A stretch of 40,724 bases of DNA, taken from contig CANQFQ010000012.1 of the NCBI GenBank assembly GCA_947599835.1, forward strand, positions 1 through 40,724, given 5' to 3'. A program made the position numbers and the translations under genes. Every line of letters starts with the position of its first letter. The first letter of the stretch is position 1. The stretch comes from an uncultured Bacilli bacterium. Lineage in GTDB: Bacteria > Bacillota_I > Bacilli_A > RFN20 > CAG-631. The notes under the pieces are model-generated. The model ran no database searches and was not told the DNA's origin. It was given only the letters and a program-made list of their open reading frames with translations. Positions 14,942 to 36,121 of this stretch are shown in pieces.

Positions 14942-14972
14942 TTGACAAAAATCGGGGGGGGGGATTTATAAT
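14942..14972 (+). promoter_or_regulatory. Poly-G promoter of the giant surface protein locus (candidate phase-variable)
   Basis: A perfect TTGACA (14942-14947) and perfect TATAAT (14967-14972) are separated by 19 bp: AAAATC, ten G, ATT. With G8 the spacer would be the ideal 17. G or C tracts in this position control phase variation by slipped-strand mispairing in Neisseria porA and Bordetella fim promoters. At G10 the promoter is expected to be weak. The homologous layout recurs at 27432-27458. Confidence 0.75.
14954..14963 (+). repeat. Homopolymeric G10 tract in promoter spacer
   Basis: Ten consecutive G in otherwise very AT-rich DNA. It is the longest G run I see in the window and lies exactly between two consensus promoter hexamers. 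Confidence 0.9.
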
Positions 14973-15076: not shown

Positions 15077-18000
15077 GTGAAAAAAAGAATTTTTAGTTTT
15101 GTTTTTATATTTTTTAGCTTAATTTTAATTAGTTTAATAATTACTAATTTCTCTAACGTAAACGTAAATTCATTATATGCTTATAATACTGAACCTGATT
15201 TAGATACTTTAATCGACCTTTCGTTAGATTCCAATGGAAAATTTAATAATGAAGAAGTAAATAAATTCATGGTTGCTTTATTAGGTGATGATGGTGCAAC
15301 TTATGGAAAGTTGTATAGTGCCGTTGAGAAAAAATCATATAATTCATCTGATTTTAGTAATACAAATGCAGTCGATGTTAAAATCAATGACCATGCTTAC
15401 ATGGCCGTTTATTTAACTATGAATAAAGACAAAGCTCCAGTCGTTACTTTTTATGAAACCTTTGCTAGTGATAGAGCTCAATTTAGTAATTATAGTGCTT
15501 ATAGCACAAACCTTGATGATGACACTTATCCTTCTTCTCTTTATGGGACTAGTTATATTAGGAATTATTTGGTTGGAAGTCCTTATTCTGCGGATGGGAC
15601 AACACTTTTTGATGCAACATCTGCTAAAAAGACTCAAAGCCCTATTTATCGTAATTTTATCGAAAAATATGATTTGTATTTAGATACCCCATCTGAAGTT
15701 GGTTATCAAGAAGATGAAAGCCAATTTAATACATTGGGAAAATATAATGCATCTTATGGTACCGATTCGAAGTATGTAAATGAGCAATATGAAAATATTA
15801 CCCACAATCCATATTATGATGCTTGGAAAGATGATAAAATTTGGATTCCATCTTCATCTGAAATAGGAATGAACTCTGAACATTTTAGTAACCCAGGTTA
15901 TAATGGCATTTGGGGCCTTACGGCACCACAACGTGCTGGTATGTCTGCCATTTGGCTTCGTTCAGCTTTATATTATCACGATGATAGTTTGGGCGATGGC
16001 ACTTGGTACTTACCTGAAGATCAATTTGCAGATGGTACGAACCATGCTCACCCTACAACCAACATTGTAGGTATAAGAATTGCATTCCATTTAAATCTTG
16101 AACATGTAATGGAAAACATTAATAGCCGAACAGTTATTAAACGCCCAGAAGCCAAAATTGATGGTGATGTTGCGAGTGAAACAACTATAGATTATCCAAA
16201 TCAATCTAATAGTATTGAATTTGAAAATTTTGATTTCAATAGTTTAACATATAAAGTTTATTATTATAGCGAAGAATCAGATATAGACCAAGATGAAGGA
16301 TTAGATGTAACTGATTCATCTTATTTTGAATTTGAAAATGCGAATAAGAATCTATTATTCCATACACCTCACAACGCTCCTATTGGTACATATATTTTAA
16401 AAGCTTATCCACAAGCTGCAAACATGTGGAAAAACACGGCATTACATGAAGAACAAGAAATTGCAAGAATTAATGTTAAAAAAGGAAAGATATCTAAACC
16501 AACATGTGAAACTATATCTGATGAAGTCACTTATCCAGATGCTTATGGTGGTGCAGATACAAGTAATGACTTAAAAATTTCTAATATTAATTTAGATACT
16601 ATTGATTATCGTGTTGTTCGCGATGAAAGTGAAGTAGCAAAAGAATTATATGTTGTTGAAGGGAAAGGCAATTTACTATATTTTAAGATTCCTGAACAAT
16701 CGCCTAAAGGTAATTATCGATTAATGGTAAAACCTAAAGAAAATTATGTTTGGACAAGTGAGGATATTGATAATGAAACAAGGAATGAAATTGAAGTATG
16801 CAATATTCAAGTTAAAGGTGCTACGATTGAATTAAATACTGATGCTATAACTGGCTATGTAGCTGAAAGTAGTCATGATGATGTAATTCAAATCAACCAT
16901 TATTTTGATAGTGATTATCAAACTCAAGGTGGAAAAAGTCATTCAAGAACATTTGAAACAAGTTGGTTTAATGTGATCGGTGATTTTTTAGCATCTATTC
17001 AATATTGTGTGGATAGTGACAATAATTTTGATACTGTTGAATCCTATGTTTGGTCTGATAGTATTGATCCAGTAACGGAAATTGGTAAACATTATTATTA
17101 CCTAAAAGTAAATTGTGAAAACCACGAAGAAAGAATATTTAAAGTTCAGTATGAAGTAATAAATGAAACGGCGACCATTGTTTTCAAGAAAAATAAAACC
17201 CACGTTTATGATGGCACCGGTGCAGATGATTTAAATGAAGAAAGATTATGGAATGAAATTGAAGAAGTAAAAGATTTCCATTATGAAGAAAAAGAATTAA
17301 CTACCGAAGACGCTATCACTCGATTAAAACAAATGATTCGTTTATTTGTTGTAGATGATAGACAAGAAGAATTAACTTCCCAAAAAGCCGGAAATTTCAC
17401 AATTAAATATGAATCTAAAATCGATGGTGATCTAGAAACTTATTATCAATTTATTATAGAAAATCCAGAATATGAAATCACTAAAGCAAATGACAATGCA
17501 TGGACTACTGAATTTAATCGAACGAAGACCACTTATGGTGATCTTAGTGATACATCGATCATCATGCCTACTGCAAAATATGGAACACCAACCGTTAGTT
17601 ATTATAAAGATAAAGACTGCTATGAACCATTAGAAGTGGGAGATAATCCAAATGATTTCTTTAAAAAGGCTGATGCAGGAACCTATTATGCTAAAGCTGA
17701 AGTATTAGAAACCGGAAGTTATAATGGTCTATCACAAGTTTATTCCATTATTATTTCTAAGGCTGATGATGCATTAGTTGATGGGGATTTTGATGTTACT
17801 GATTTTAATTATGGTCATCCTTTCGACGAAACCAAACCAAAAGTTAAAAGTAATAGTGAAGTAACCATCAAATATTATCGTGATGAAGCTTGTGAAAACG
17901 AAATATCGTATGATGAATTAAAAACAGCTTCTAAAGGTACCTATTATGGTAAAGTGATTGTTGAAGAATCAACCAATTATAATGCCTTTGAATATAAATT

Positions 18001-20533
18001 TTCCTTTGAAATCACTTTTTCAAATGATAATCAATTCGATAATAAAGATTCAATGAATGATTTTGTTAGTGGTAGTTATACCTATGCTGAAGAATTACCA
18101 GAACCTAGCAAAGTTGAAAAGCCAACATCATCTTATGGCGATGTAACGGTTAAATATTATACGGATGCTAACTGTCAAAATGAAATAGAAAATCCAGAAG
18201 AATATTTCAAAAACGCTGATGCAGGTACTTATTTTGTTAAAGTAGAAGTACTTGAAACCGAAAGTTATAATGGAACTAGTGAAATCTATCAATTTACCAT
18301 TAATAAAGCGCAAAATAGTTTAAAAGATATAGAAACTTTTGATTTTGCGGGTTGGACTTTTGGTGAACCTGTATCTCCTACGATTCCTGAAGCCACTTTT
18401 GAAAATGCTACAGTTACTATTAAGTTTTACACAGATGAAACTAGACAATCGGAAATCAGTGAATCCGATTTAAGACTAGCAAATGTTGGAAAGTATTATG
18501 GAAGAGTCATCATAGCAAGTACGACCAACTATCTAGAAAGAACCTATGATTTTGAATTCAATATTGATAAATCTAATAAAAATACTTGGTTACTTCCATA
18601 TAGTCGTGATAATTTTGTTTATAAAACTGAACCAAGTATTATTAATCAACCTATCGCTTTATTTGGTGAACCAAAGATTAGTTATTATTATGATGAAAAT
18701 TTAGAAAGACCAATTGAAAATCAAGAACATCCAGACGAATTTTTCAAAACTGCTAAGGCAGGTACTTATTATGCTAAAGTAGAAGTAGAAGGAACAGATA
18801 ACTACAATGGTCTATCTGATAAATATTCATTTACCATTGATAAAGCACCTAATGAATGGAATGTTGAATTCTATTGTGATGATTTTATTTATGGTGATGC
18901 TCCTGAAACATTTTCGGGTGAACCTTCAGTTAAAAATGAAGATGAAGAAGCTGAAATAACGATCACTTATTACACTGATAGATCCTGTGAAGAAAGCTAT
19001 AAAATTGAAAATCCTGCTGAGTATTTTGATGATGCTCCTGTAGGAATGTATTATGCTAAAGTGGATGCAAGTGAAACCACAAATTATCTTGGTATGTCTA
19101 AAGTTTATGAATTTTCAATTTTAATGGCTACGAATGATTTTGATCAAGAATTAAATATTCCTAGTATCACTTATGGTGAAGCAACTCCAGAATCATTTAA
19201 AAACAATTCAACTTCTCTTTTTGGTGCTACGGACGTTAAATATTATCGTGATGAAACATGCTTAGATGAAATTAGTGTTGATGAATTAGCAACGGCTGAT
19301 GCAGGTGTCTACTTTGCTAAAGTGACGGTAGAAGGCAATAGTAACTATAATAGTTTAAGTAAAGTTTATCCTTTTGTCATTAGTCCTGCTGAAAATGAAT
19401 TTGAAAATGAACTTGAAATTGCTGATTTTGAATATGGAAAGCAAGGATCAATTACAACTAGACCTACGACAAAACATGGTGGAAATATCACGATAAAATT
19501 TTATCGTGATGCGGATTGTTTAGATGAAGTACTTCCTGAAGAATTATCTTATCTTCCAGCAGGTAGATACTATGCTAAAGTCATTGTGGAAGCAACTACA
19601 AACTATAAGCGTTTAGAAAAAGTTTATCATTTTGATATTTTAGCTGCGACCGATAATGCATGGATAAATGAATATAAACGTAGTGATTTTACTTTTGGGG
19701 ATCGACCTAGTGTTTATGTAACACCTGTTGCTAAATATGGAACACCTGTGATTACTTACTATAAAGATAGTGCATGTCAACAAGAAATCACTGAAGATGC
19801 CCTAAAAAAAGCTTCCGCAGGTACCTATTATGTAAAAGTAGTTGTAAATGCTACCAGTAACTATAATGGCCTAGAAGCTAGATATTCATTTAGAATTTTA
19901 CCAACCAATAATCGATTCATTCAAGAATATAGTCGAGCTGACTTTGTTTATGGTGAAACGCCTAGTGTTCCAACAATGCCAGAAGTATTAGATGGAACGC
20001 CAGTTATCACCTACTATAAGGATGCTAATCTAACTGAAGTTATCGATGAAAACGAAATTGCTACGGCTCCAGTAGGTAAATATTATGTAAAAGTAGTCGT
20101 TGAAGCTACAGCTAGTTGTCAAAGTATTGAAGGTATTTATTCATTTAGTATTTTAAAAGCTAATAACAGTTGGCTTGAAGAATATGATCGCAAAGATTAT
20201 ACAGTTGGAAGTACACCAAGTGAAGAAACGCAACCTGTTTCTAAATTTGGTGAAGCTACGATTGAATATTATAAAGATATTACTTGTACTGAAAGTGAAA
20301 AAATCAATAAAGAAGATATCAAAAATGTAGGTACCTATTATGTAAAAGTAACTGTTGAAGGTACGGATAACTATAATGGATTAGAAAAAGTTTATAAATT
20401 CAGTATCGTTAAGAAAAACATTGCTTTTGATATGGGAATACTTGTAGGTGTCGTTGGTTTTGAATTATTCATCATGTTAGTGCTAGCTATATCAATAAGA
20501 AGAAGGAGAAAAGAAAATGCTAAATACCATTAA
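15077..20533 (+). CDS. Giant repeat surface protein A (DUF6273-like N-domain, 11 tandem repeats, C-terminal anchor)
   Basis: An 1818-residue exported protein. The signal peptide is about residues 1-35 (KKR then a long hydrophobic core). An N-terminal domain (about 36-345) with IWIPSSSEIG, WLRSALYY and GIRIAFHLNLE resembles DUF6273-like domains. A linker region (about 345-805) with beta-rich modules follows, then 11 repeats of 80-95 residues (about 807-1780). Each repeat has the pattern (N/E)(F/Y)xRxDFxYG...P...YGxxxIxYYxDxxC...EEL...AGTYYAKVxVExTxNYNGLxxxYxFxI, like MBG/Ig-type stalk domains. A single membrane helix (about 1785-1807) and an Arg-rich tail end the protein; there is no LPXTG. 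GTG 15077 is chosen because GGAGGGG (15064-15070) precedes it; an in-frame ATG at 15020 lacks one. Probably an adhesin or stalk. Confidence 0.8.
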   Translation: MKKRIFSFVFIFFSLILISLIITNFSNVNVNSLYAYNTEPDLDTLIDLSLDSNGKFNNEEVNKFMVALLGDDGATYGKLYSAVEKKSYNSSDFSNTNAVDVKINDHAYMAVYLTMNKDKAPVVTFYETFASDRAQFSNYSAYSTNLDDDTYPSSLYGTSYIRNYLVGSPYSADGTTLFDATSAKKTQSPIYRNFIEKYDLYLDTPSEVGYQEDESQFNTLGKYNASYGTDSKYVNEQYENITHNPYYDAWKDDKIWIPSSSEIGMNSEHFSNPGYNGIWGLTAPQRAGMSAIWLRSALYYHDDSLGDGTWYLPEDQFADGTNHAHPTTNIVGIRIAFHLNLEHVMENINSRTVIKRPEAKIDGDVASETTIDYPNQSNSIEFENFDFNSLTYKVYYYSEESDIDQDEGLDVTDSSYFEFENANKNLLFHTPHNAPIGTYILKAYPQAANMWKNTALHEEQEIARINVKKGKISKPTCETISDEVTYPDAYGGADTSNDLKISNINLDTIDYRVVRDESEVAKELYVVEGKGNLLYFKIPEQSPKGNYRLMVKPKENYVWTSEDIDNETRNEIEVCNIQVKGATIELNTDAITGYVAESSHDDVIQINHYFDSDYQTQGGKSHSRTFETSWFNVIGDFLASIQYCVDSDNNFDTVESYVWSDSIDPVTEIGKHYYYLKVNCENHEERIFKVQYEVINETATIVFKKNKTHVYDGTGADDLNEERLWNEIEEVKDFHYEEKELTTEDAITRLKQMIRLFVVDDRQEELTSQKAGNFTIKYESKIDGDLETYYQFIIENPEYEITKANDNAWTTEFNRTKTTYGDLSDTSIIMPTAKYGTPTVSYYKDKDCYEPLEVGDNPNDFFKKADAGTYYAKAEVLETGSYNGLSQVYSIIISKADDALVDGDFDVTDFNYGHPFDETKPKVKSNSEVTIKYYRDEACENEISYDELKTASKGTYYGKVIVEESTNYNAFEYKFSFEITFSNDNQFDNKDSMNDFVSGSYTYAEELPEPSKVEKPTSSYGDVTVKYYTDANCQNEIENPEEYFKNADAGTYFVKVEVLETESYNGTSEIYQFTINKAQNSLKDIETFDFAGWTFGEPVSPTIPEATFENATVTIKFYTDETRQSEISESDLRLANVGKYYGRVIIASTTNYLERTYDFEFNIDKSNKNTWLLPYSRDNFVYKTEPSIINQPIALFGEPKISYYYDENLERPIENQEHPDEFFKTAKAGTYYAKVEVEGTDNYNGLSDKYSFTIDKAPNEWNVEFYCDDFIYGDAPETFSGEPSVKNEDEEAEITITYYTDRSCEESYKIENPAEYFDDAPVGMYYAKVDASETTNYLGMSKVYEFSILMATNDFDQELNIPSITYGEATPESFKNNSTSLFGATDVKYYRDETCLDEISVDELATADAGVYFAKVTVEGNSNYNSLSKVYPFVISPAENEFENELEIADFEYGKQGSITTRPTTKHGGNITIKFYRDADCLDEVLPEELSYLPAGRYYAKVIVEATTNYKRLEKVYHFDILAATDNAWINEYKRSDFTFGDRPSVYVTPVAKYGTPVITYYKDSACQQEITEDALKKASAGTYYVKVVVNATSNYNGLEARYSFRILPTNNRFIQEYSRADFVYGETPSVPTMPEVLDGTPVITYYKDANLTEVIDENEIATAPVGKYYVKVVVEATASCQSIEGIYSFSILKANNSWLEEYDRKDYTVGSTPSEETQPVSKFGEATIEYYKDITCTESEKINKEDIKNVGTYYVKVTVEGTDNYNGLEKVYKFSIVKKNIAFDMGILVGVVGFELFIMLVLAISIRRRRKENAKYH

Positions 20534-20747: not shown

Positions 20748-23700
20748 ATGAAAAAGAAAAACTTTTTTAGCAAAGTTATTATGTTTAGTATTGTGCTCAT
20801 TTTTAGTATGATTACTTATATAACATTTTCATTTAGTTCAAGTCGTCTTGTATTTGCTTATCAACCTATAGATGAAAGGCATGTTTATGATTTAACATTA
20901 GATGATTCAGGTAAGTTTAAGAAAGCTGAATTAAATGAGCTATTCAACGCTTTAGTTAAGGGAAATCAGAATTATAAAGGCATTGTTGATAAATTAACCA
21001 TGAACTCATATGTTTCAAGTGATAAATTTTATCAAAAACAAAATGTCTATGTAAAACTTAATGTAGGTCATGAAGATAGAGTATTTATTGCTACGTGTTT
21101 AACCACCAATTTTAGTAATCAACCTATTCTTACTTTATGGCTTGCTGAAAGTAAAAATGAAGAAGCAGTAGAATTTAGTAATGTTTCTACTGATCACGAT
21201 TTAACGACAAAATCTTTTTTTAAAGATCATGATTTTAAAAATGGTACAGATGATGTTTATGATTATCCTGCTATCGTTTATGGCAATAGTTACGCTAGAA
21301 GTTATTTGGTAGGTAGTGAATATAGAACGTCTGATACTACTTTAAATGATGGAAAAAGCGTTCAAAATAAAGATTGGGCTGCATTTATAGACAAATATAA
21401 AGATTATATTGAAATACCAGCAAACGTTAGTTTACAACAAGAACAAAGTACTTTAGACCATGGTTTCTATGAAAACTCATCTGTAACTAATAAAACTTGG
21501 ATGGTAAAATTAAGTGCTGCTAAATGTTATTTTGCTTGGATAAATGACCCAATTTGGCTGCCTTCTAATTATGAAGTAGGTCAACTTACCACTCAAGAAA
21601 ATGAAAATTCATTTTCTGGCCCTTGGAAAGTTTCATTAAAACAATATCATGAAAATAATTCTACAAACAAAATGACGCTATTAAGAGCTGCTTTTTTTGG
21701 TAATGAACTAGAAGAAGACCCCACTGCAGGTGTTAGATATATTCCTTATACTCCACTGTCTTATCTAAAGGGTTGTCCTGAAACTTCCAATAATTTATAT
21801 ACAAAATATGCTATTAGACCAGCCTTGCATTTAAATCTAGAAAAAGCATTATTAAATGCTTTAGGTAAAGGTGATGCGAACTTAGTGGATCAACCCACAC
21901 TAGAAACAGCAACAACTACAGGTAATATTGTTTGTGAATATCCTAATGCTTCTAGTGATGTGGTTTTATCAAATTTTGATTTTGATAAAATGACTTATGA
22001 AGTAAATTATTCAAAAAATAGCGGTGGTCCTGAATCCACTACTAAAATCCAAGAACAAGTAATAAATCAATATATAGTTGAAGATCATGAAAATAATAAA
22101 ATAACTTTCCACACTCCTGCAGATAGTGAAGTAGGAACTTATAAATTAAGTGTTAAGACAAAAGGAGACTATCTATGGAAAGAAACTGGAACAAATGATA
22201 CGATTAATATCTTTAGTATTGTTGTTAGTGAAGGTGCAATTCAAAGAATCTTAAAACATGCAGATATTGAAACCAATTATGGTGATACTTCAGAAGAAGT
22301 AAGTTTTGATAACTTTGATCAAAACACGATGGAATATAATGTTTATAAAGATGAAGGATTACTCCCTGATAAAGCTACTTATGTAGAAGAAAGAGGAGAT
22401 AGTTTACATTTTAAAACGAATGCCAATACACAAATTGGTAAATATAGTCTCAAAGTTAAACCAAAAGAAAAGTATTTTTGGCAAGACGATTTAAGCCAAG
22501 ATGAATATACGCTGTGTACGATTACAGTAAAAGAAGAAACAATTCAACTCAAAACCGAAGCTAATATCACCGGTTTAGTACCATCAGGTACTTATAATGA
22601 TGAAATTATGTTACAACATTATTTCGATGATATCATTGATACGGATAGTATAGGTGAAAATGGTAAACATTCTAGAGAGTTTCAAAAAGATTGGTTTAAA
22701 ACGAAAGATAATGTTCAAGTTTCAAGCATTCAATATTCTGAATCTGGTGAACTTTATGATTGGCAAGATCATATTGATCCAGTCACAGAAATCAATACTT
22801 ATGAATATTATGTAAAAGTAACCTGTCCAAATCATACTCAAAGAATTTTCCATGTTACTTATCTAGTTGTTCAAGATATTATTAATGTTACCTTTAATAG
22901 TGAAAAAGCTCAAAAAGTTTATGCAAATGGTTCATTTGACAATGAAAAAATTTGGGAAGCCATTACTTCTATTACCGGCATGCATAAACAAGAACAACCT
23001 GTAAATGATTTAGCTGAAGCTAAGGAACGTTTAAGAAAAATCGTGAATTTCTTCTTAACGGATTCTAGTGAAAATAAAGTCGAAGAAGAAAAAGTGGGTA
23101 CTTTTACAATTAGACATGAATTTTTAACGAAAACTGATTCATCAAGAAGTGATAAAGATAGAGATCTAGATTCGGGTTATGGTCTTGTATTAAATAACAA
23201 TAATTATACCATTACTAAGGCTTTAAATAAGGTTCAAGAATTAACTGAATTTGATTTTAAAGGTTTTGTCTATGGTAGTAGTGAGATCACTTTACCTGAT
23301 GCTAGTCAATTACATGGCTATGAAGGAACAACAGTGATAATCAAATATTATAGCGATGCATTATGTACAACAGAACTTACGGAAGCTCAACTTAAAGCTT
23401 CTGAAGTAGGTACTTATTATGCTAAAGTGATCATTGAAGATACAGATAATTATCAACGTTATGAATCCCAAGTCTATAGTTTTGAAATCACGCCGGCTGA
23501 AAATAGTTGGGTAGAGGAATTTGAATATCATGATCGTGAATTTGTTTATGGAAATTCATTTACAATGCCAGACACACCGATATCCGTCAGTGGAGGTAAA
23601 GTCACTATAACCTACTACACTGATGTTAAATGTGATGAAGGAAGTAAGATTGAACATCCTGAAGAATTCTTCAATAGTAAGGCTGCCAATGTGGGTACTT

Positions 23701-26525
23701 ATTATGTGAAAGTTGATGTAGCTGCCACTAAAAACTATAAAGAACTTTCTAAAACCTATTCATTTAAGATTGTTCCAGCAGATAACCAATTGCAAGAAGA
23801 ATTCAATCCTAGTGGTTGGGTATACGAAGCAGAACCTAGTCTTCCTAGCGTTCCTAGTGTTGCAGATGGAACTCCAAAAATTACTTATTATACCGATGCT
23901 GATTGCTTAAATAAGATTGATGATCCTGAAACTTATTTCAAGACAGCTGAAGTAGGAACATATTACTTAAAAGTTACAGTAGAGGCTACGGATAACTATA
24001 AAGCTTATGAAAGTGTTTTCTCATTTGATATTTCTAAAGCAGAAAATCGTTGGTTAACTTCGATTCCAGAAGATGGAATTAGTTTTCAATATAACAATGC
24101 TCCTGAAGAAATAATTCCAAATATTGAAACTGCAAGTAAGGCCAATTATAAGATAACTTACTATAGTGATATCTCGCTGAATGAAGAATATGAAATCGAT
24201 GAATCGACTTTAAGAACATCGGATGTGGGTACTTACTATGCTAAAGTGACAATTGAAGAAAGTAAGAATTATAAAACACTTGAAGTCATCTTACCAATTA
24301 AGATTACAGAAATTGAAAATAGTTGGATTACTGAATTCCATTGTGATGACTTTGCTTATGGTAATCCAAGTGTTGTAACAATGCCTGTTCCTAAATACGG
24401 AAAAAACAATGTCATTGTTACGTATTATGAAGATGAACAATGCATTGATCCTATCAGTGAAGAAGAACTTAAAACTGCTAAAGTAGGGACTTACTATGCT
24501 AAGGTTGATGTTGAAAGTAGTATTAACTATGGCAATATGTCTGAAGTTTATTCCTTTAAGATTGTCAAGGCTGAACAAGATGGAGATTATGCCATTTATG
24601 CTAATGAATTCATCAATCATTATGAAAGAGCAGACTTTGTCTATGGACAAGTTGCAACCACTCCAATTCTACCTATTTCTAGATATGGTATTCCTAGTAT
24701 TAGTTATTATAAAGATGCTAGTTATAGTGAACTTAGTAAGATAGAAAATCCTGATGAATATTTCAATACGGCTGATGCTGGAACTTATTATGTTTTAGTT
24801 ACTGTTGAAGCAACGGATGACTATATTGGCTTAGAAGAAAGAAAAGAATTCCATATCTTAAAAGCTGATAATTCTTGGACTACGGAATTCCATATGGAAA
24901 ATTTCGTTTACGGAAATCCAAATGTTCCTCAAATGCCATCCATTGCTCATGGAAATGATGAGGATATAACAGTTACTTATTATTCTGATGAAAGTTTAAG
25001 TGCAGATAGTATCGTAACTGATTTAAGCATAGCAAATGTGGGTAGATACTATGCTCATGTTAAAGCAAAAGGAGATACTAACTATAATGATCTAGAAGAA
25101 ACCTATTCATTCTATATTACAAAAAATAATGAAAATGATTGGGTTGATGAATTTAGTCGTGATAATTTCACTTTTGAAGAAACGCCAAGTGTAGTCACAA
25201 CGCCAACTTCTATTTATGGAACTCCTGAAATTAGTTATTACACGGATGCATCTTGTGAAGAACGATACAAAATTACTGAAGAAGAACTAAAAACGGCAGA
25301 TGCAGGTACTTATTTTGCTAAAGTCGTTGTAGCTGATACCGATAACTACAATGGTTTTTCTAAGATTTATGCATTTACGATTGATCCTGCTAATAATGAA
25401 TGGTTAATTGAATTCAGTCGTGATAATTTCTATTATGGTAATCCTAGTAGTGTTACGACGCCAACGACAAAATATGGTGGAAAAATAACGATTCGATACT
25501 ATCGGAATCGTGAATGCACACAAATCATCAGCGAAGAAGAACTTAAAGTTGCTGGTGTAGGCACCTATTATGTCAAAGTTAGTGTAGCTGCTACCAAAAA
25601 CCATAAGGCAATCGAAGCCATCTATCAATTTGAAATTTTACAAGCTAATGATAATATGTGGCTTGAAGAATATCATCGTAGTGATTTTGTTTATGGAACT
25701 ACACCTAGTATTGCAAATATTCCAATTGCTAAATATGGTGAAGCTTTGGTTAGTTATTATAAAGATGCTGATTGTCGTATCGCCATTCGTGAAGAACAAT
25801 TCGCTACCGCTCCAATTGGTACTTACTATGCTAAAGTTGAAGTGCCAGCAACGAGTAGTTACAATGGTTTATCCAACGTCTATGAATTCCATATTACAAA
25901 GGGTACGAATCGATGGACTAAAGAATTCAGTCGTAATGACTTTATCTATCAAAATCCTAGTGAGGTAACAATGCCTGTTGCTTTGCATGGAACGGCCACG
26001 ATTAAATATTATCGTGATGAACGTCTAACCGATGAAATCACTGAAGAAGAACTTAAAACTGCTCCTGTGGGTACATACTATGTTCTAGCTGAAACGGTAG
26101 GCAATGAAAATTATAATGGTTTAACTAGTATCTATAGATTTAATATCATGAAAGCAGAAAATAGTTTTATAACTGAATATCATCGTGAAAATTATGCAGT
26201 GGATAAAACTCAAAGTATAGAAACCCAAGCTGTAGCTAAATATGGAGATGTGATTGTTAAATATTATACGGATGCAGATTGCAGTAAAGAAATCAAGAAA
26301 GAAAACATCGATAAAGTAGGTACTTATTATGTTAAGGTCATTGTAGAAGAAACAAATAACTATTATGGTCTAGAAAAAGTTTATAAATTTAGTGTTCTAG
26401 ATAAATACATTGCCTTTGATATGGGTATATTTGTAGCCATCATAGGCTTTGAATTATTAGTGATGTTACTTCTAGTCGTTATGATAAGAGCAAGGAGAAA
26501 TAGATATGCTAATCGAAACCATTAA
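20748..26525 (+). CDS. Giant repeat surface protein B (paralog of A, 12 tandem repeats)
   Basis: A 1925-residue paralog of the protein at 15077 with the same architecture: signal peptide (about 1-40), N-terminal DUF6273-like domain (IWLPSNYEVG near 267, AIRPALHLNLE near 352), a beta-rich linker, then 12 repeats (about 825-1887), a membrane helix and an Arg-rich end. The C-terminal IAFDMGI...GFEL segment is nearly identical in both, while repeat sequences differ. GAGGAG fits ATG 20748; the in-frame TTG at 20715 has no support. It follows the first small membrane gene by 33 bases and no terminator lies between, so all four genes probably form one operon behind the poly-G promoter. Confidence 0.8.
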   Translation: MKKKNFFSKVIMFSIVLIFSMITYITFSFSSSRLVFAYQPIDERHVYDLTLDDSGKFKKAELNELFNALVKGNQNYKGIVDKLTMNSYVSSDKFYQKQNVYVKLNVGHEDRVFIATCLTTNFSNQPILTLWLAESKNEEAVEFSNVSTDHDLTTKSFFKDHDFKNGTDDVYDYPAIVYGNSYARSYLVGSEYRTSDTTLNDGKSVQNKDWAAFIDKYKDYIEIPANVSLQQEQSTLDHGFYENSSVTNKTWMVKLSAAKCYFAWINDPIWLPSNYEVGQLTTQENENSFSGPWKVSLKQYHENNSTNKMTLLRAAFFGNELEEDPTAGVRYIPYTPLSYLKGCPETSNNLYTKYAIRPALHLNLEKALLNALGKGDANLVDQPTLETATTTGNIVCEYPNASSDVVLSNFDFDKMTYEVNYSKNSGGPESTTKIQEQVINQYIVEDHENNKITFHTPADSEVGTYKLSVKTKGDYLWKETGTNDTINIFSIVVSEGAIQRILKHADIETNYGDTSEEVSFDNFDQNTMEYNVYKDEGLLPDKATYVEERGDSLHFKTNANTQIGKYSLKVKPKEKYFWQDDLSQDEYTLCTITVKEETIQLKTEANITGLVPSGTYNDEIMLQHYFDDIIDTDSIGENGKHSREFQKDWFKTKDNVQVSSIQYSESGELYDWQDHIDPVTEINTYEYYVKVTCPNHTQRIFHVTYLVVQDIINVTFNSEKAQKVYANGSFDNEKIWEAITSITGMHKQEQPVNDLAEAKERLRKIVNFFLTDSSENKVEEEKVGTFTIRHEFLTKTDSSRSDKDRDLDSGYGLVLNNNNYTITKALNKVQELTEFDFKGFVYGSSEITLPDASQLHGYEGTTVIIKYYSDALCTTELTEAQLKASEVGTYYAKVIIEDTDNYQRYESQVYSFEITPAENSWVEEFEYHDREFVYGNSFTMPDTPISVSGGKVTITYYTDVKCDEGSKIEHPEEFFNSKAANVGTYYVKVDVAATKNYKELSKTYSFKIVPADNQLQEEFNPSGWVYEAEPSLPSVPSVADGTPKITYYTDADCLNKIDDPETYFKTAEVGTYYLKVTVEATDNYKAYESVFSFDISKAENRWLTSIPEDGISFQYNNAPEEIIPNIETASKANYKITYYSDISLNEEYEIDESTLRTSDVGTYYAKVTIEESKNYKTLEVILPIKITEIENSWITEFHCDDFAYGNPSVVTMPVPKYGKNNVIVTYYEDEQCIDPISEEELKTAKVGTYYAKVDVESSINYGNMSEVYSFKIVKAEQDGDYAIYANEFINHYERADFVYGQVATTPILPISRYGIPSISYYKDASYSELSKIENPDEYFNTADAGTYYVLVTVEATDDYIGLEERKEFHILKADNSWTTEFHMENFVYGNPNVPQMPSIAHGNDEDITVTYYSDESLSADSIVTDLSIANVGRYYAHVKAKGDTNYNDLEETYSFYITKNNENDWVDEFSRDNFTFEETPSVVTTPTSIYGTPEISYYTDASCEERYKITEEELKTADAGTYFAKVVVADTDNYNGFSKIYAFTIDPANNEWLIEFSRDNFYYGNPSSVTTPTTKYGGKITIRYYRNRECTQIISEEELKVAGVGTYYVKVSVAATKNHKAIEAIYQFEILQANDNMWLEEYHRSDFVYGTTPSIANIPIAKYGEALVSYYKDADCRIAIREEQFATAPIGTYYAKVEVPATSSYNGLSNVYEFHITKGTNRWTKEFSRNDFIYQNPSEVTMPVALHGTATIKYYRDERLTDEITEEELKTAPVGTYYVLAETVGNENYNGLTSIYRFNIMKAENSFITEYHRENYAVDKTQSIETQAVAKYGDVIVKYYTDADCSKEIKKENIDKVGTYYVKVIVEETNNYYGLEKVYKFSVLDKYIAFDMGIFVAIIGFELLVMLLLVVMIRARRNRYANRNH

Positions 26526-26846: not shown

Positions 26847-27065
26847 ATGAAAAACCAAAAAGATAATGTTTCCATTACGGATTATCATTATGCAAAAGAA
26901 ATACTTTCACTCACTTTAATATTTTTTAAAAAAATTGAATGTTATAAAAAAAATAGTAGTGATGAAGTCGTTTTATCTCTTTTAGAAGAATTAAGTACCA
27001 ATTTATTAGAACAATTTTCACAATTAATTACGATTTTGGAGGTGCAAGATAATGTTTCCAGGTAA
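26847..27065 (+). CDS. Small helical protein, probable spore coat (CotF-like) partner
   Basis: A 72-residue all-helical protein (LTLIFFKKIE... and LLEELSTNLLEQFSQLITIL). Alone it is not diagnostic, but its stop overlaps the start of a CotF-like gene by 14 bases, and paired short and long coat proteins of this kind are common in spore-forming Bacilli. AAAGGAAAG precedes the ATG. I call it a coat-type protein by context only. Confidence 0.55.
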   Translation: MKNQKDNVSITDYHYAKEILSLTLIFFKKIECYKKNSSDEVVLSLLEELSTNLLEQFSQLITILEVQDNVSR

Positions 27066-27381
27066 AAAAAGAGTGAAAACACCTATTTTAAATCCGAATC
27101 AATTGAATGATTATGATATTTTATATGATTGTAAACAAACCTTGCATGATTTATTATTGGAATATTTTAATTTTATGGCGGAAGTTTCAAGTGAACAAAA
27201 TTTTAATCGAATTGAAACCGTTGCTTATGAATTGATTGAAGATTATCGGCAAATTGTTCGACTCATTCAACAGTTAGGATGGTACAAAGAGGAAATTGTT
27301 GGTAATGAAAAAGTAGTAGAACTTATTTTTACTTTAAAGCAAAAAAGAAAAGAAATTGAAGAAAAAAATAATAAAAAGTAA
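27052..27381 (+). CDS. CotF-family spore coat protein
   Basis: A 109-residue protein with the half-ferritin-like pattern of the CotF family: NDYDILYDCKQTLHDLLLEYF, a second helix with ETVAYELIEDYRQIVRLIQQ and the GWY motif (about residues 82-84) that ends typical CotF domains. CotF proteins are packed into the spore coat. GGAGGTG (27038-27044) lies 7 nt before ATG 27052. The C-terminal tail is Lys/Glu-rich. Its presence, with YunB and YutH, argues that the organism sporulates. Confidence 0.65.
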   Translation: MFPGKKRVKTPILNPNQLNDYDILYDCKQTLHDLLLEYFNFMAEVSSEQNFNRIETVAYELIEDYRQIVRLIQQLGWYKEEIVGNEKVVELIFTLKQKRKEIEEKNNKK

Positions 27382-27431
27382 ACAAAAATGAGGCAATATT
27401 TTCCATTTTGGTGATAGGTGTCATTTTTTAT

Positions 27432-27458
27432 TTGACAAAAAGTGGGGGGGGTTATAAT
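27432..27458 (+). promoter_or_regulatory. Poly-G promoter of the sipW locus (candidate phase-variable)
   Basis: TTGACA (27432-27437) and TATAAT (27453-27458), both perfect, are separated by 15 bp: AAAAGT, eight G, T. With G10 the spacer would be 17. The layout and flanks match the promoter at 14942, except that the tract is shorter. At G8 the promoter is expected to be weak. Confidence 0.75.
27444..27451 (+). repeat. Homopolymeric G8 tract in promoter spacer
   Basis: Eight consecutive G between two perfect promoter hexamers, in AT-rich DNA. It is the second-longest G run I see in the window. Confidence 0.9.
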
Positions 27459-27507
27459 AAAATCGCATTTTTTTAAAAAATGTGCTTTATTAGGTGGAGA
27501 ATAGAAA

Positions 27508-28581
27508 ATGATATTTGCAGAAACAAAACTGGATGTTGTGGCCCTAGTTGTTTCGATAATCGTTATTTTCTTTATGACGATTATTTTCTTGTCCTTATTT
27601 TTATTAAATAATGCATTAAGGAAAAAAATAATTATCAAAGGGGTAGATGATGAGACTTTTGCTAAACAATTACAAAAAAGTTGTGTCCCATCTGAAAACA
27701 ATCCAAAAACAAAAGATTTTTATCAAAATTATTTAAAAAAACAAACACGAGGACAAAAAGTATTGTCTGTTCTTTCGAATGCTATTTTCGGTGTGTTAAT
27801 AGCAATTCTTTTAGTATGCTTTACTTTTGCTGCTATTTTTAGGGCGAATGGGGATTTAGTTTTTCTTAATGATAAAGCCTATTTAACTGTCATGACTGGT
27901 TCTATGTCTGAAGTGCATTCAGATAATCAAAATTGGTTAAAACAATATGGCTTACTAGATTCTCGTTATCGTATTGAAACTTATTCCTTAATTACCATCG
28001 AAAAAGTAAAAAAACAAGAAGATTTGAAAGTAGGCGATGTTGTTGCCTATCGTGATTCAAATAAAAATGTCATTGTGCATCGTATTGTTTCGATTACAAC
28101 GACGCCAGTAAAAGATAAAAATAGAAGTGCACCCCTCTATTTTCAATTGCGTGGGGATGCTAATAATACCTCTACAGATGATGAAAAGTCCCTTTCTTTC
28201 GATAAAATTTTAGGTAAATATAATGGGCAAAAAAATTTGGGATTAGGCGCAATCGTCGTTTATATTCAATCCAATATTGGCCTTATTGCCATTTGTTTTG
28301 CTGTTTTAATTATTTTCTTTGTAAGTCTATATGAAGATAAATTAATTACCTATTCTAGGCAACGGATGTTTTATGTTGCAAAATTATTAGGTGATGGCGA
28401 ATTTTTGTTTGAAAGTACCGACAAAAAATTGCAGTATGTGAGAAGAGTTCGAGGATATCGAATAGTTCAGTCTGAACAACCATTCGACGATGCATCATTA
28501 CAATATCATCGAAGAATTCAAGGTTTTAGAAAAATAGAAACGAATGATGATCAAAATCATCATGATTATACAAATAAATAA
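27508..28581 (+). CDS. sipW: SipW-like (Sec11-type) signal peptidase I
   Basis: A 357-residue membrane protein with an N-terminal helix (about 8-32), a second (about 90-115), the extracytoplasmic catalytic domain, and a third helix (about 245-268). The catalytic Ser is in MTGSMS (about 130), the His of the Ser-His type is in VIVHRIV (about 190), and the conserved Asp is in RGDANNTSTD (about 215). These features match the SipW/Sec11 branch, which cleaves TasA-type matrix proteins. The cytoplasmic tail (about 270-357) carries two similar LQYxRRxxGxR repeats and is unusual. AGGTGGAG precedes the ATG. The next gene encodes a typical SipW substrate, 24 bases downstream, and the promoter has a poly-G spacer. 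Confidence 0.85.
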   Translation: MIFAETKLDVVALVVSIIVIFFMTIIFLSLFLLNNALRKKIIIKGVDDETFAKQLQKSCVPSENNPKTKDFYQNYLKKQTRGQKVLSVLSNAIFGVLIAILLVCFTFAAIFRANGDLVFLNDKAYLTVMTGSMSEVHSDNQNWLKQYGLLDSRYRIETYSLITIEKVKKQEDLKVGDVVAYRDSNKNVIVHRIVSITTTPVKDKNRSAPLYFQLRGDANNTSTDDEKSLSFDKILGKYNGQKNLGLGAIVVYIQSNIGLIAICFAVLIIFFVSLYEDKLITYSRQRMFYVAKLLGDGEFLFESTDKKLQYVRRVRGYRIVQSEQPFDDASLQYHRRIQGFRKIETNDDQNHHDYTNK

Positions 28582-28605
28582 TTTAATGGATGCGAGGATT
28601 TAGAT

Positions 28606-30145
28606 ATGTACAAGAAAAAAAATGTTACTTTCAGGCCTTGCATTTGTCGCAGTGGCCGTGATTGTTGGTAGTGGTTTTGCAGTATGGAATTTTGAATCCG
28701 GTGATGATGCTTCCAAAGGTATTTATAATATCGGACTTTATGTTACACCTAAAGTAGATACTGTAGGTACGATTTCTACGAATAATGATTATGCTTTAAT
28801 TCTTGACCAAGGTGCTCTTCCTCAATTAACAAAAGAAGAAACCTTAGCCCAAAACAAAGATTATTATAAAAGAGGCATTTATGTAGGAGAATTAAAAAAG
28901 AAAGCTGATGGCGATGGCTTTGAAACTTTACCTACTGGAAGTTATGATTATACGCAAATTCCAACTTTAACGGGTTATTGGATTCAAGAAGCTGAAGATG
29001 CGCAAAATATTGTTGGTGAAAATGTGAACGATATGTCTTTCCAAACCACGATTAAACTTCGTAAAAAAGCCATTGCTAGATATGTTCAAGTAAATACAGA
29101 AGATGGGCTTTATGAAATTGATGAAGCAGCTAGTGCTAAGGATGAATATATCAATTATGTGTATAATTGGGGTAATTTAGGTGATGTTTTGAAAAACGTA
29201 GACGGTCAATATCGAATTACGAAAACTAAAAAAGAATTTTATGACTATGTCAATGAAAACTTTAACAAATCTTCTGAAAATAATGAATGGTTAGAAGCAG
29301 CAAGAGCAGCTGGTTGGGATAGTAATGAAAATGAAGCAATTACCTTTGCTACTGATTTTAACAGTTCTGATACTTTACATACACTTCCCACAGGATTAGA
29401 AGAAAAAGATGTATATAACGTTGCTTCTAAAGATAATGGAGATCATGGTACTGGTTTAACATTACGCCGTCATTATGCATTAAAAACGTATATGCTTTTT
29501 GATAAGAATGAAAATAAGCCCTTGAAATTTTATGGAACGGAACAAAATGCTAAAGACGCTAGAGAATCTGGCTTTGGTGGTGCCACTGAAGAAAATTGTG
29601 TAATTTCGATTGCATATTTTATGTATTATAAAACAGGTTTAGATGATGCTGGTTTAACGCAATTAGAAAATTTCTCAAACGATCAAAAGGCGGATTTCAC
29701 TGAAGTAGTTAGTGCATCTGAAGCATCACTTACAGTAGGTGCAGAAACATTTACAAGTGTCGATTGTTATTATTTCCAATATACATTGGATGTTTCTAAT
29801 TATGGTTCTATTGGCGATAGTAGTGGCCAAAGAAAGTATGAAAATAAAAGATTTTCTTATTATCCATATTCTTATAATAAGAAAGATGAAGGTTATGCTA
29901 CAGCCACAGTTGATGATAAAAAGTTATATGCTTTACTCAATACTGGCGATGATGAAAATATTTATTATCGAAAACCAGTTAATGTAGATGAATATAAGGC
30001 TATGTTAGCAAAATTTGATGAAGATGCTGCAGGAAAAGTCAATCAATTTGTTAACTTAGATGAAAAATTTGCTATTGTTGAATTTGGTTCTAAGTTAATT
30101 ACTTTAGCTTCTGCAGATCGTGGCTTAGAAGGCCCTGGTATGTAA
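28606..30145 (+). CDS. SipW-dependent exported (TasA-like) protein, start interrupted by an A8 frameshift
   Basis: From 28622 the frame encodes 507 residues beginning MLLSGLAFVAVAVIVGSGFAVW, the hydrophobic core and cleavage region of a SipW-cognate signal peptide, followed by a large acidic, Tyr-rich exported domain of unknown family. This frame lacks a ribosome binding site at 28622 and a basic n-region. ATG 28606 has GAGG (28594-28597) at proper spacing and starts MYKKK, but eight A (28615-28622) put it one base out of frame, giving a 21-residue truncated product. With seven A it would read MYKKKMLLSGLAF, a normal signal peptide. Either this copy is switched off, slippage restores the frame, or there is a sequencing error. 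Confidence 0.75.
28615..28622 (+). repeat. A8 tract at the start of the SipW substrate
   Basis: Eight A directly after codons ATG TAC AAG. Loss of one A restores the frame. Runs of this kind also allow transcriptional slippage. Confidence 0.85.
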
Positions 30146-35754: not shown

Positions 35755-36121
35755 GGGGGTGTTTTGGTTTCGACGGGGATAGTTTGGTATGGAGAGCAGT
35801 CGCTTTATCTCGTTATCGATTACAAAACAATATCTGGCAACAGAAATCAAAATTTTGCTTTTGCTGCTTAATTTAAAGCCATCGTCCAATAACGGAAGCA
35901 TAGCCATCACATAAGTCTGGGTCTCTAAGGCTTATGATGGTGTAACAAGAGAGAATAAGTACAAATGATACCTATAAGTTTGTAACGAAAAATACATAGG
36001 TTAGTTTAAGTTAGATTCGTTTACTAATCTTAGCTTAAATGAAAATTGATAGTAAACTAAACTGTAGGGCTCTGTATGGGGCTTTCTTCGGAAGCGAGTT
36101 CGATTCTCGTCACCTCCACCA
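35755..36121 (+). ncRNA. ssrA: tmRNA (ssrA)
   Basis: A 367-nt RNA that rescues stalled ribosomes. The 5' GGGGGTG pairs with the 3' CACCTCC, and the 3' end carries encoded ACCA. The tRNA-like half includes the TTCGATTCTC T-loop near 36099. The 5' segment TTTTGGTTTCGACGGGGATA is typical of tmRNA. The resume codon GGC at 35836-35838 opens the tag GNRNQNFAFAA, stop TAA 35869-35871, preceded by the non-encoded Ala. It resembles the Bacillus tag, which also begins at GGC after ATAACT-like sequence. Pseudoknots were not folded. Followed by a terminator and then a mobile, decayed segment. Confidence 0.97.

Follow-up and report, generated by a model that had tools for sequence, protein, structure and literature searches.

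A poly-G spacer promoter before a sipW-like gene, one of at least nine candidate phase-variable promoters in an uncultured Bacilli genome

Overview

We propose that the promoter of a SipW-like signal peptidase gene in an uncultured Bacilli bacterium is a phase-variable sigma-A promoter that switches by slippage of a G tract, and that the genome has at least nine promoters of this kind, making up a phasome that is kept in a sister species and consists mainly of surface and export genes; we place the probability of this reading at roughly 0.86. Six observations support it: the promoter architecture, the non-random number and position of the tracts, their conservation, the bias towards surface genes, a length difference confined to the tract (in another genus), and the avoidance of 17-bp spacers. 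The window is the whole stretch of 40,724 nucleotides that was analysed; the genome from which it comes, here G000, is a 1.40-Mb draft in 27 contigs, and the sister species is G001.

Under this reading, replication slippage would add or remove G residues between a consensus -35 and -10. A change of one or two bases would bring the spacer closer to about 17 bp or take it further away, and transcription of the sipW-like operon would rise or fall with it in a random, reversible and heritable manner. The promoter would be ON at 17 bp and OFF or weak at 15 and 19, most cells would be parked OFF, and slippage within the species itself would be expected to alter the cell surface. If a signal peptidase gene is switched, a whole group of its substrates would be switched at once, and with the genome's other poly-G promoters, mostly before surface and export genes, the locus would form a contingency regulon. 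As G8 is a short tract, the slippage rate may be modest.

A G8 tract in the spacer of the sipW promoter

The promoter elements below were read from the window, the -35 hexamer also by pattern match.

27432-27437, + strand: -35 hexamer TTGACA of the sipW promoter
27438-27443, + strand: AAAAGT between the -35 and the G tract
27444-27451, + strand: G8 tract, within the 15-bp spacer 27438-27452
27452, + strand: single T between the G8 tract and the -10
27453-27458, + strand: -10 hexamer TATAAT of the sipW promoter
27508-28581, + strand: SipW-like ER-type signal peptidase, 357 aa, with an N-terminal membrane extension and the motifs TGSM, HRIV and GDANN
28622-30145, + strand: presumed peptidase substrate, 507 aa, with a signal-like N-terminus (..VGSGFAVWNF)
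14942-14972, + strand: twin promoter, TTGACA (14942-14947), AAAATC, G10 (14954-14963), ATT, TATAAT (14967-14972)
15077-20533, + strand: giant surface protein, 1818 aa, with an N-terminal export signal, tandem repeats and a C-terminal membrane anchor
20748-26525, + strand: second giant surface protein of the same design

Direct reading gives a spacer of 15 bp for the sipW promoter and 19 bp for its twin, and the earlier note's description of the former (27432-27458) is exact; its arithmetic also holds, in that the sipW spacer would measure 17 bp with a G10 tract and the giant-protein spacer with a G8 tract. The ATG of the peptidase gene lies about 50 bp 3' of the poly-G promoter, which is the nearest consensus promoter to the gene start at 27508, and a scan of the + strand from 27158 to 27508 yielded no further promoter candidate with a 16-18 bp spacer. 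A homopolymer between -35 and -10, a feature of porA-type phase variation by spacer slippage, was found in this promoter and in the genome's other poly-G promoters. Upstream of sipW is a small gene (27052-27381, 109 aa, no known family) whose sister-species relative is instead located upstream of the giant-protein promoter. Behind the twin promoter, the 1818-aa gene has a GTG start preceded by the ribosome site GGAGGGGAG and encodes repeats of the form ..YYKD..GTYYVKV..YNGL..YSF.I; the two giant-protein genes are probably one transcription unit. Elsewhere, the window carries a tmRNA gene (35755-36121) with the tag GNRNQNFAFAA.

The peptidase matched NCBIfam TIGR02228 at E 3.9e-12 (46.3 bits, below the curated cut-off of 51.85) and the SipW model NF046067 at E 4.4e-12 (46.0 bits, below the curated cut-off of 190). 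The Ser and His catalytic motifs (TGSM and HRIV) and the Asp-containing box (GDAN(N)) are present, as aligned with the L044 peptidase, which exceeds the TIGR02228 cut-off; a back-translation search of genome contigs found no relatives of the sipW protein. The downstream 507-aa protein shares 37-53% identity with four sister-species proteins (L054), which are paralogues at the same locus. No TasA/camelysin family match, nor any other known family, was found for it among Pfam and NCBIfam models, and its identity as TasA is thus not established; its AlphaFold model (mean pLDDT 43) was too poor for use. Within 28594-28634, an ATG at 28607 with a GAGG ribosome site reads through an A8 run in a frame different from that of the 507-aa ORF (ATG 28622), and the sister-species relatives have a lysine-rich start in frame. 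The A8 run may be a second, translational tract or an assembly error.

Poly-G promoters recur in the genome and are kept in a sister species

G8 runs gave four overlapping matches in the window, where shuffles led us to expect 0.09. The whole genome holds ten tracts of G8 or longer, eight of them within a -35/-10 spacer, and a ninth poly-G promoter has a G7 tract; in the sister species, 11 of 14 tracts are in promoters. The strict pattern TTGACA..G6+..TATAAT matched five times in G000 and its reversed control not at all, and a poly-C control pattern likewise gave 0 in the genus. When the -10 was loosened, there were 9 matches in G000 and 13 in G001 (two of the latter overlapping at one site, and one being a G6 match without a good -35), with 0 for the control. 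The other genus of the family (two genomes) has tracts, none of them in promoters. With at least nine candidate switchable loci in the genome, the four surface phenotypes envisaged in the earlier note would be too few.

Four orthologous loci retain the tract in both species, even though the remaining spacer sequence differs between the two at most of these loci. The sister-species promoter of the sipW-like orthologue reads TTGACA AACGAGCC G9 T TACACT, and that of the giant-protein orthologue has a G10 tract; the promoter of a lipoprotein/ABC operon has G8 in both species, and that of an ABC-2 transporter G9 in G001 and G8 in G000. In the sister species the flanks of the sipW-like and giant-protein promoters each total 9 bp and both optima would therefore be G8, which speaks against opposite responses of the two loci as a design. 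At a further slot, shared upstream genes (L039:1884-3529 and L056:2146-3788) precede a poly-G promoter in both species (L039:3737 and L056:3922, the former about 700 bp from the first ORF) and the cargo differs, being a polysaccharide cluster in G000 (L039) and an exported protein in G001 (L056).

Tract length varies and the 17-bp spacer is avoided

In another genus, orthologues from two genomes (G325 and G319) were compared over 1,860 bp at 93.9% identity; they differ by 111 mismatches and one indel, which is a gain of two G in the promoter tract (G10 to G12). A third genome (G393) shares the G10 of G325. Two neighbouring paralogous lipoprotein genes in G001 have near-identical promoter cores save for G8 versus G9. 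In both cases tract length differs while the flanks are alike, and these alignments, made between species or paralogues rather than within one population, show the tract as the length-variable spot.

Ordinary TTGACA/TATAAT pairs in the DNA retrieved have a spacer peak at 17 bp (15 sites, the next highest length having 5). Poly-G spacers (G8 or more) of 15, 16, 17, 18, 19 and 20 bp numbered 27, 26, 12, 37, 34 and 13 among the matches listed, which are unevenly spread and carry error in their assembled G-run lengths, and relative to ordinary promoters the 17-bp spacer is avoided (Fisher p 2e-8). Shuffling G lengths over the flanks of the 153 poly-G promoters listed gave an expectation of 28 at 17 bp against 12 observed (p about 2e-4), with 15 and 19 bp in excess and 16 and 18 bp as expected. 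The depletion persists with one promoter per genome (9 observed versus 24), and none of 20 poly-G promoters in the genus of the window has a 17-bp spacer. Illumina sequencing has trouble at G tracts (PMC9187656), and assembled lengths may accordingly be wrong; random error of this kind would blur a dip at 17, however, rather than create one. The distribution is the inverse of the known spacing dependence of sigma-70-type promoters, and from it we infer that the perfect promoter is a reserve state and that the majority allele, as assembled, tends to give a weak promoter.

One may postulate instead an ordinary regulon with no switch, in which a common regulator recognises the G tract as an invariant binding site or DNA-shape element. 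TC stands immediately 5' of the tract in most poly-G promoters of the genus, the tract is nearly always G rather than C on the coding strand, and in 98 of 157 poly-G runs among the matches listed the run directly adjoins the -10, which always places a G near -14, in the manner of extended -10 promoters; each of these would suit such an element. The strand preference is also not something that slippage alone predicts, and one idea is that the extended -10-like G accounts for it. A fixed element is nevertheless hard to reconcile with tracts that range from 7 to 16 with unlike flanks across lineages and phyla, with close orthologues (G325/G319) that differ by a tract indel alone, or with the avoidance of 17 bp, which indicates that spacing matters, and we consider this explanation improbable. 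Slightly less probable still is that the spacers set fixed promoter strengths gene by gene, with little switching within a population. The enrichment of 15 and 19 bp is what low-strength settings would produce, and some orthologues do have equal tracts (G8/G8 at the lipoprotein operon, G10/G10 in G325/G393); yet fixed tuning does not require a G run, slippery tracts persist while their flanks diverge, and G8/G9 and G10/G12 differences separate otherwise similar promoters.

That the tracts are chance or assembly artefacts is the least credible alternative, and we give it very little weight. The genome is a draft and G runs are prone to sequencing error, but the window's excess over its shuffled expectation, the empty control patterns, the conservation of orthologous loci in a separate assembly and the strong surface-gene bias refute this explanation as to the presence of the tracts, and it bears on their exact lengths only. 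Slippage in the spacer thus remains our preferred reading.

Genes behind the promoters

The targets of poly-G promoters are mostly surface or exported proteins, transporters and capsule enzymes. Within the genus they comprise the sipW-like operon, the giant repeat proteins, which have a signal at the N-terminus and an anchor at the C-terminus, lipoproteins and another SipW-like operon (L044), in which a PARCEL-repeat surface protein is also encoded. Genes for polysaccharide synthesis and acyltransferases, YfhO, an SPFH/zinc-ribbon operon and an ABC-2 type transporter likewise stand behind such promoters. A hydrophobic N-terminus was found in 14 of 18 first genes versus 76 of 206 other genes in the genus (p 9e-4), and in 61 of 89 versus 202 of 780 in a pooled sample (p 5e-15). 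The sister species also has a BREX defence operon (BrxP, E 2e-239; BrxC, E 2e-190) behind a poly-G promoter at L048:9043 (G001:C1:214034, - strand), and BREX phage defence in that species is possibly phase-variable.

Distribution and the link to SipW-type export

A search of relatives for TTGACA, a G run and TATAAT, which the earlier note had suggested, returned examples in the sister species and in a class-wide sample, often before surface genes. Across the 395 genomes of that sample there were about 329 poly-G promoter matches in 61 genomes (a sum over counts that includes overlapping alternatives), compared with 10 for the reversed pattern and, among the matches listed, 10 for poly-C in 9 genomes. 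Scanning 85,000 species recovered at least 118 stretches, most of them from Clostridia and Bacilli of the gut that are uncultured; Saccharibacteria, Ancillula, Streptobacillus, Spirochaetes, Chloroflexi and others were also among the matches listed. Phages were considered as carriers and rejected, given 4 matches in 2.9 million virus contigs.

A family of the same class (f17) has up to 55 matches per genome. Dozens of near-identical poly-G promoters per genome (L249-L317; G285, G417, G352, G168, G306 and others) stand there before protein families with SipW-type signal peptides, several at contig ends. The model for the SipW-dependent signal, TIGR04088, matched below threshold at best, and the signal was therefore scored by pattern (..GTTFAFF.., ..GSSYAYF..) with a control set: 35 of 53 sampled genes behind poly-G promoters in this family had it, versus 6 of 105 others (p 8e-16). 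The same pattern was not enriched in the genus of the window (1 of 18 first genes). In a different family of the window's own order (L326), a poly-G promoter precedes a unit of two genes, one for a SipW-type substrate and the other for a SipW-like peptidase, and the link between poly-G promoters and SipW-type export thus recurs in at least three lineages.

Relation to known systems

Known cases of phase variation through promoter tract length concern single loci in a small number of Gram-negative pathogens and spirochaetes. In Neisseria meningitidis porA, as summarised in a later paper, a poly-G tract lies between -35 and -10 with an optimum of about 17 bp (van der Ende 1995, via PMC7864442). 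Our promoters resemble it in having a G run in the spacer and surface protein targets; that summary describes porA as one locus in a Gram-negative pathogen, whereas a single Bacilli genome here has at least nine, a SipW-like export operon among them. Treponema pallidum tp0126 likewise has a poly-G spacer, with transcription best at 17 nt, but belongs to an unrelated phylum and concerns other target genes (PMC7864442). Bifidobacterium breve, a gut commensal, uses poly-G slippage in pilus genes for surface structures, although the switch described is translational and within the coding sequence, with promoter-spacer G tracts mentioned in passing (PMC9187656). As in the tapA-sipW-tasA operon of Bacillus subtilis, an ER-type signal peptidase gene lies beside those of presumed cell-surface substrates; unlike that operon, for which the papers found report no slippage switch, the present one has a poly-G promoter, no TapA was seen and the presumed substrate has no detectable TasA family match.

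The central proposal of the earlier note, a phase-variable promoter of this kind before a SipW-like gene, is supported by a tract that is kept in the sister species and recurs genome-wide before surface genes. It knew of no described SipW/TasA system with such a promoter; other SipW-type systems that have one do exist, in the sister species, in L326 and in f17. Among open-licence papers we found none reporting SipW/TasA slippage, nor any on poly-G spacer promoters from Bacilli or Clostridia. The mechanism is already known, and its scale as a regulon, its breadth and the SipW link appear to be undescribed. We judge the odds about even that poly-G spacer promoters are a large undescribed contingency system of uncultured gut Firmicutes and some other phyla, with up to dozens per genome, G nearly always on the coding strand, SipW-secreted proteins under control in several lineages, and a majority allele off 17 bp, such that a minority of cells would come to display a surface protein through rare slippage.

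Promoter phase variation would here constitute a regulon in uncultured Bacilli, with an architecture that is common in other uncultured gut lineages. Chance would then decide the surface composition of each lineage of these bacteria, with consequences for phage resistance, for mucosal immunity and for the comparison of strains from metagenomes. The avoidance of 17 bp predicts that most cells are off the optimum and a minority at 17.
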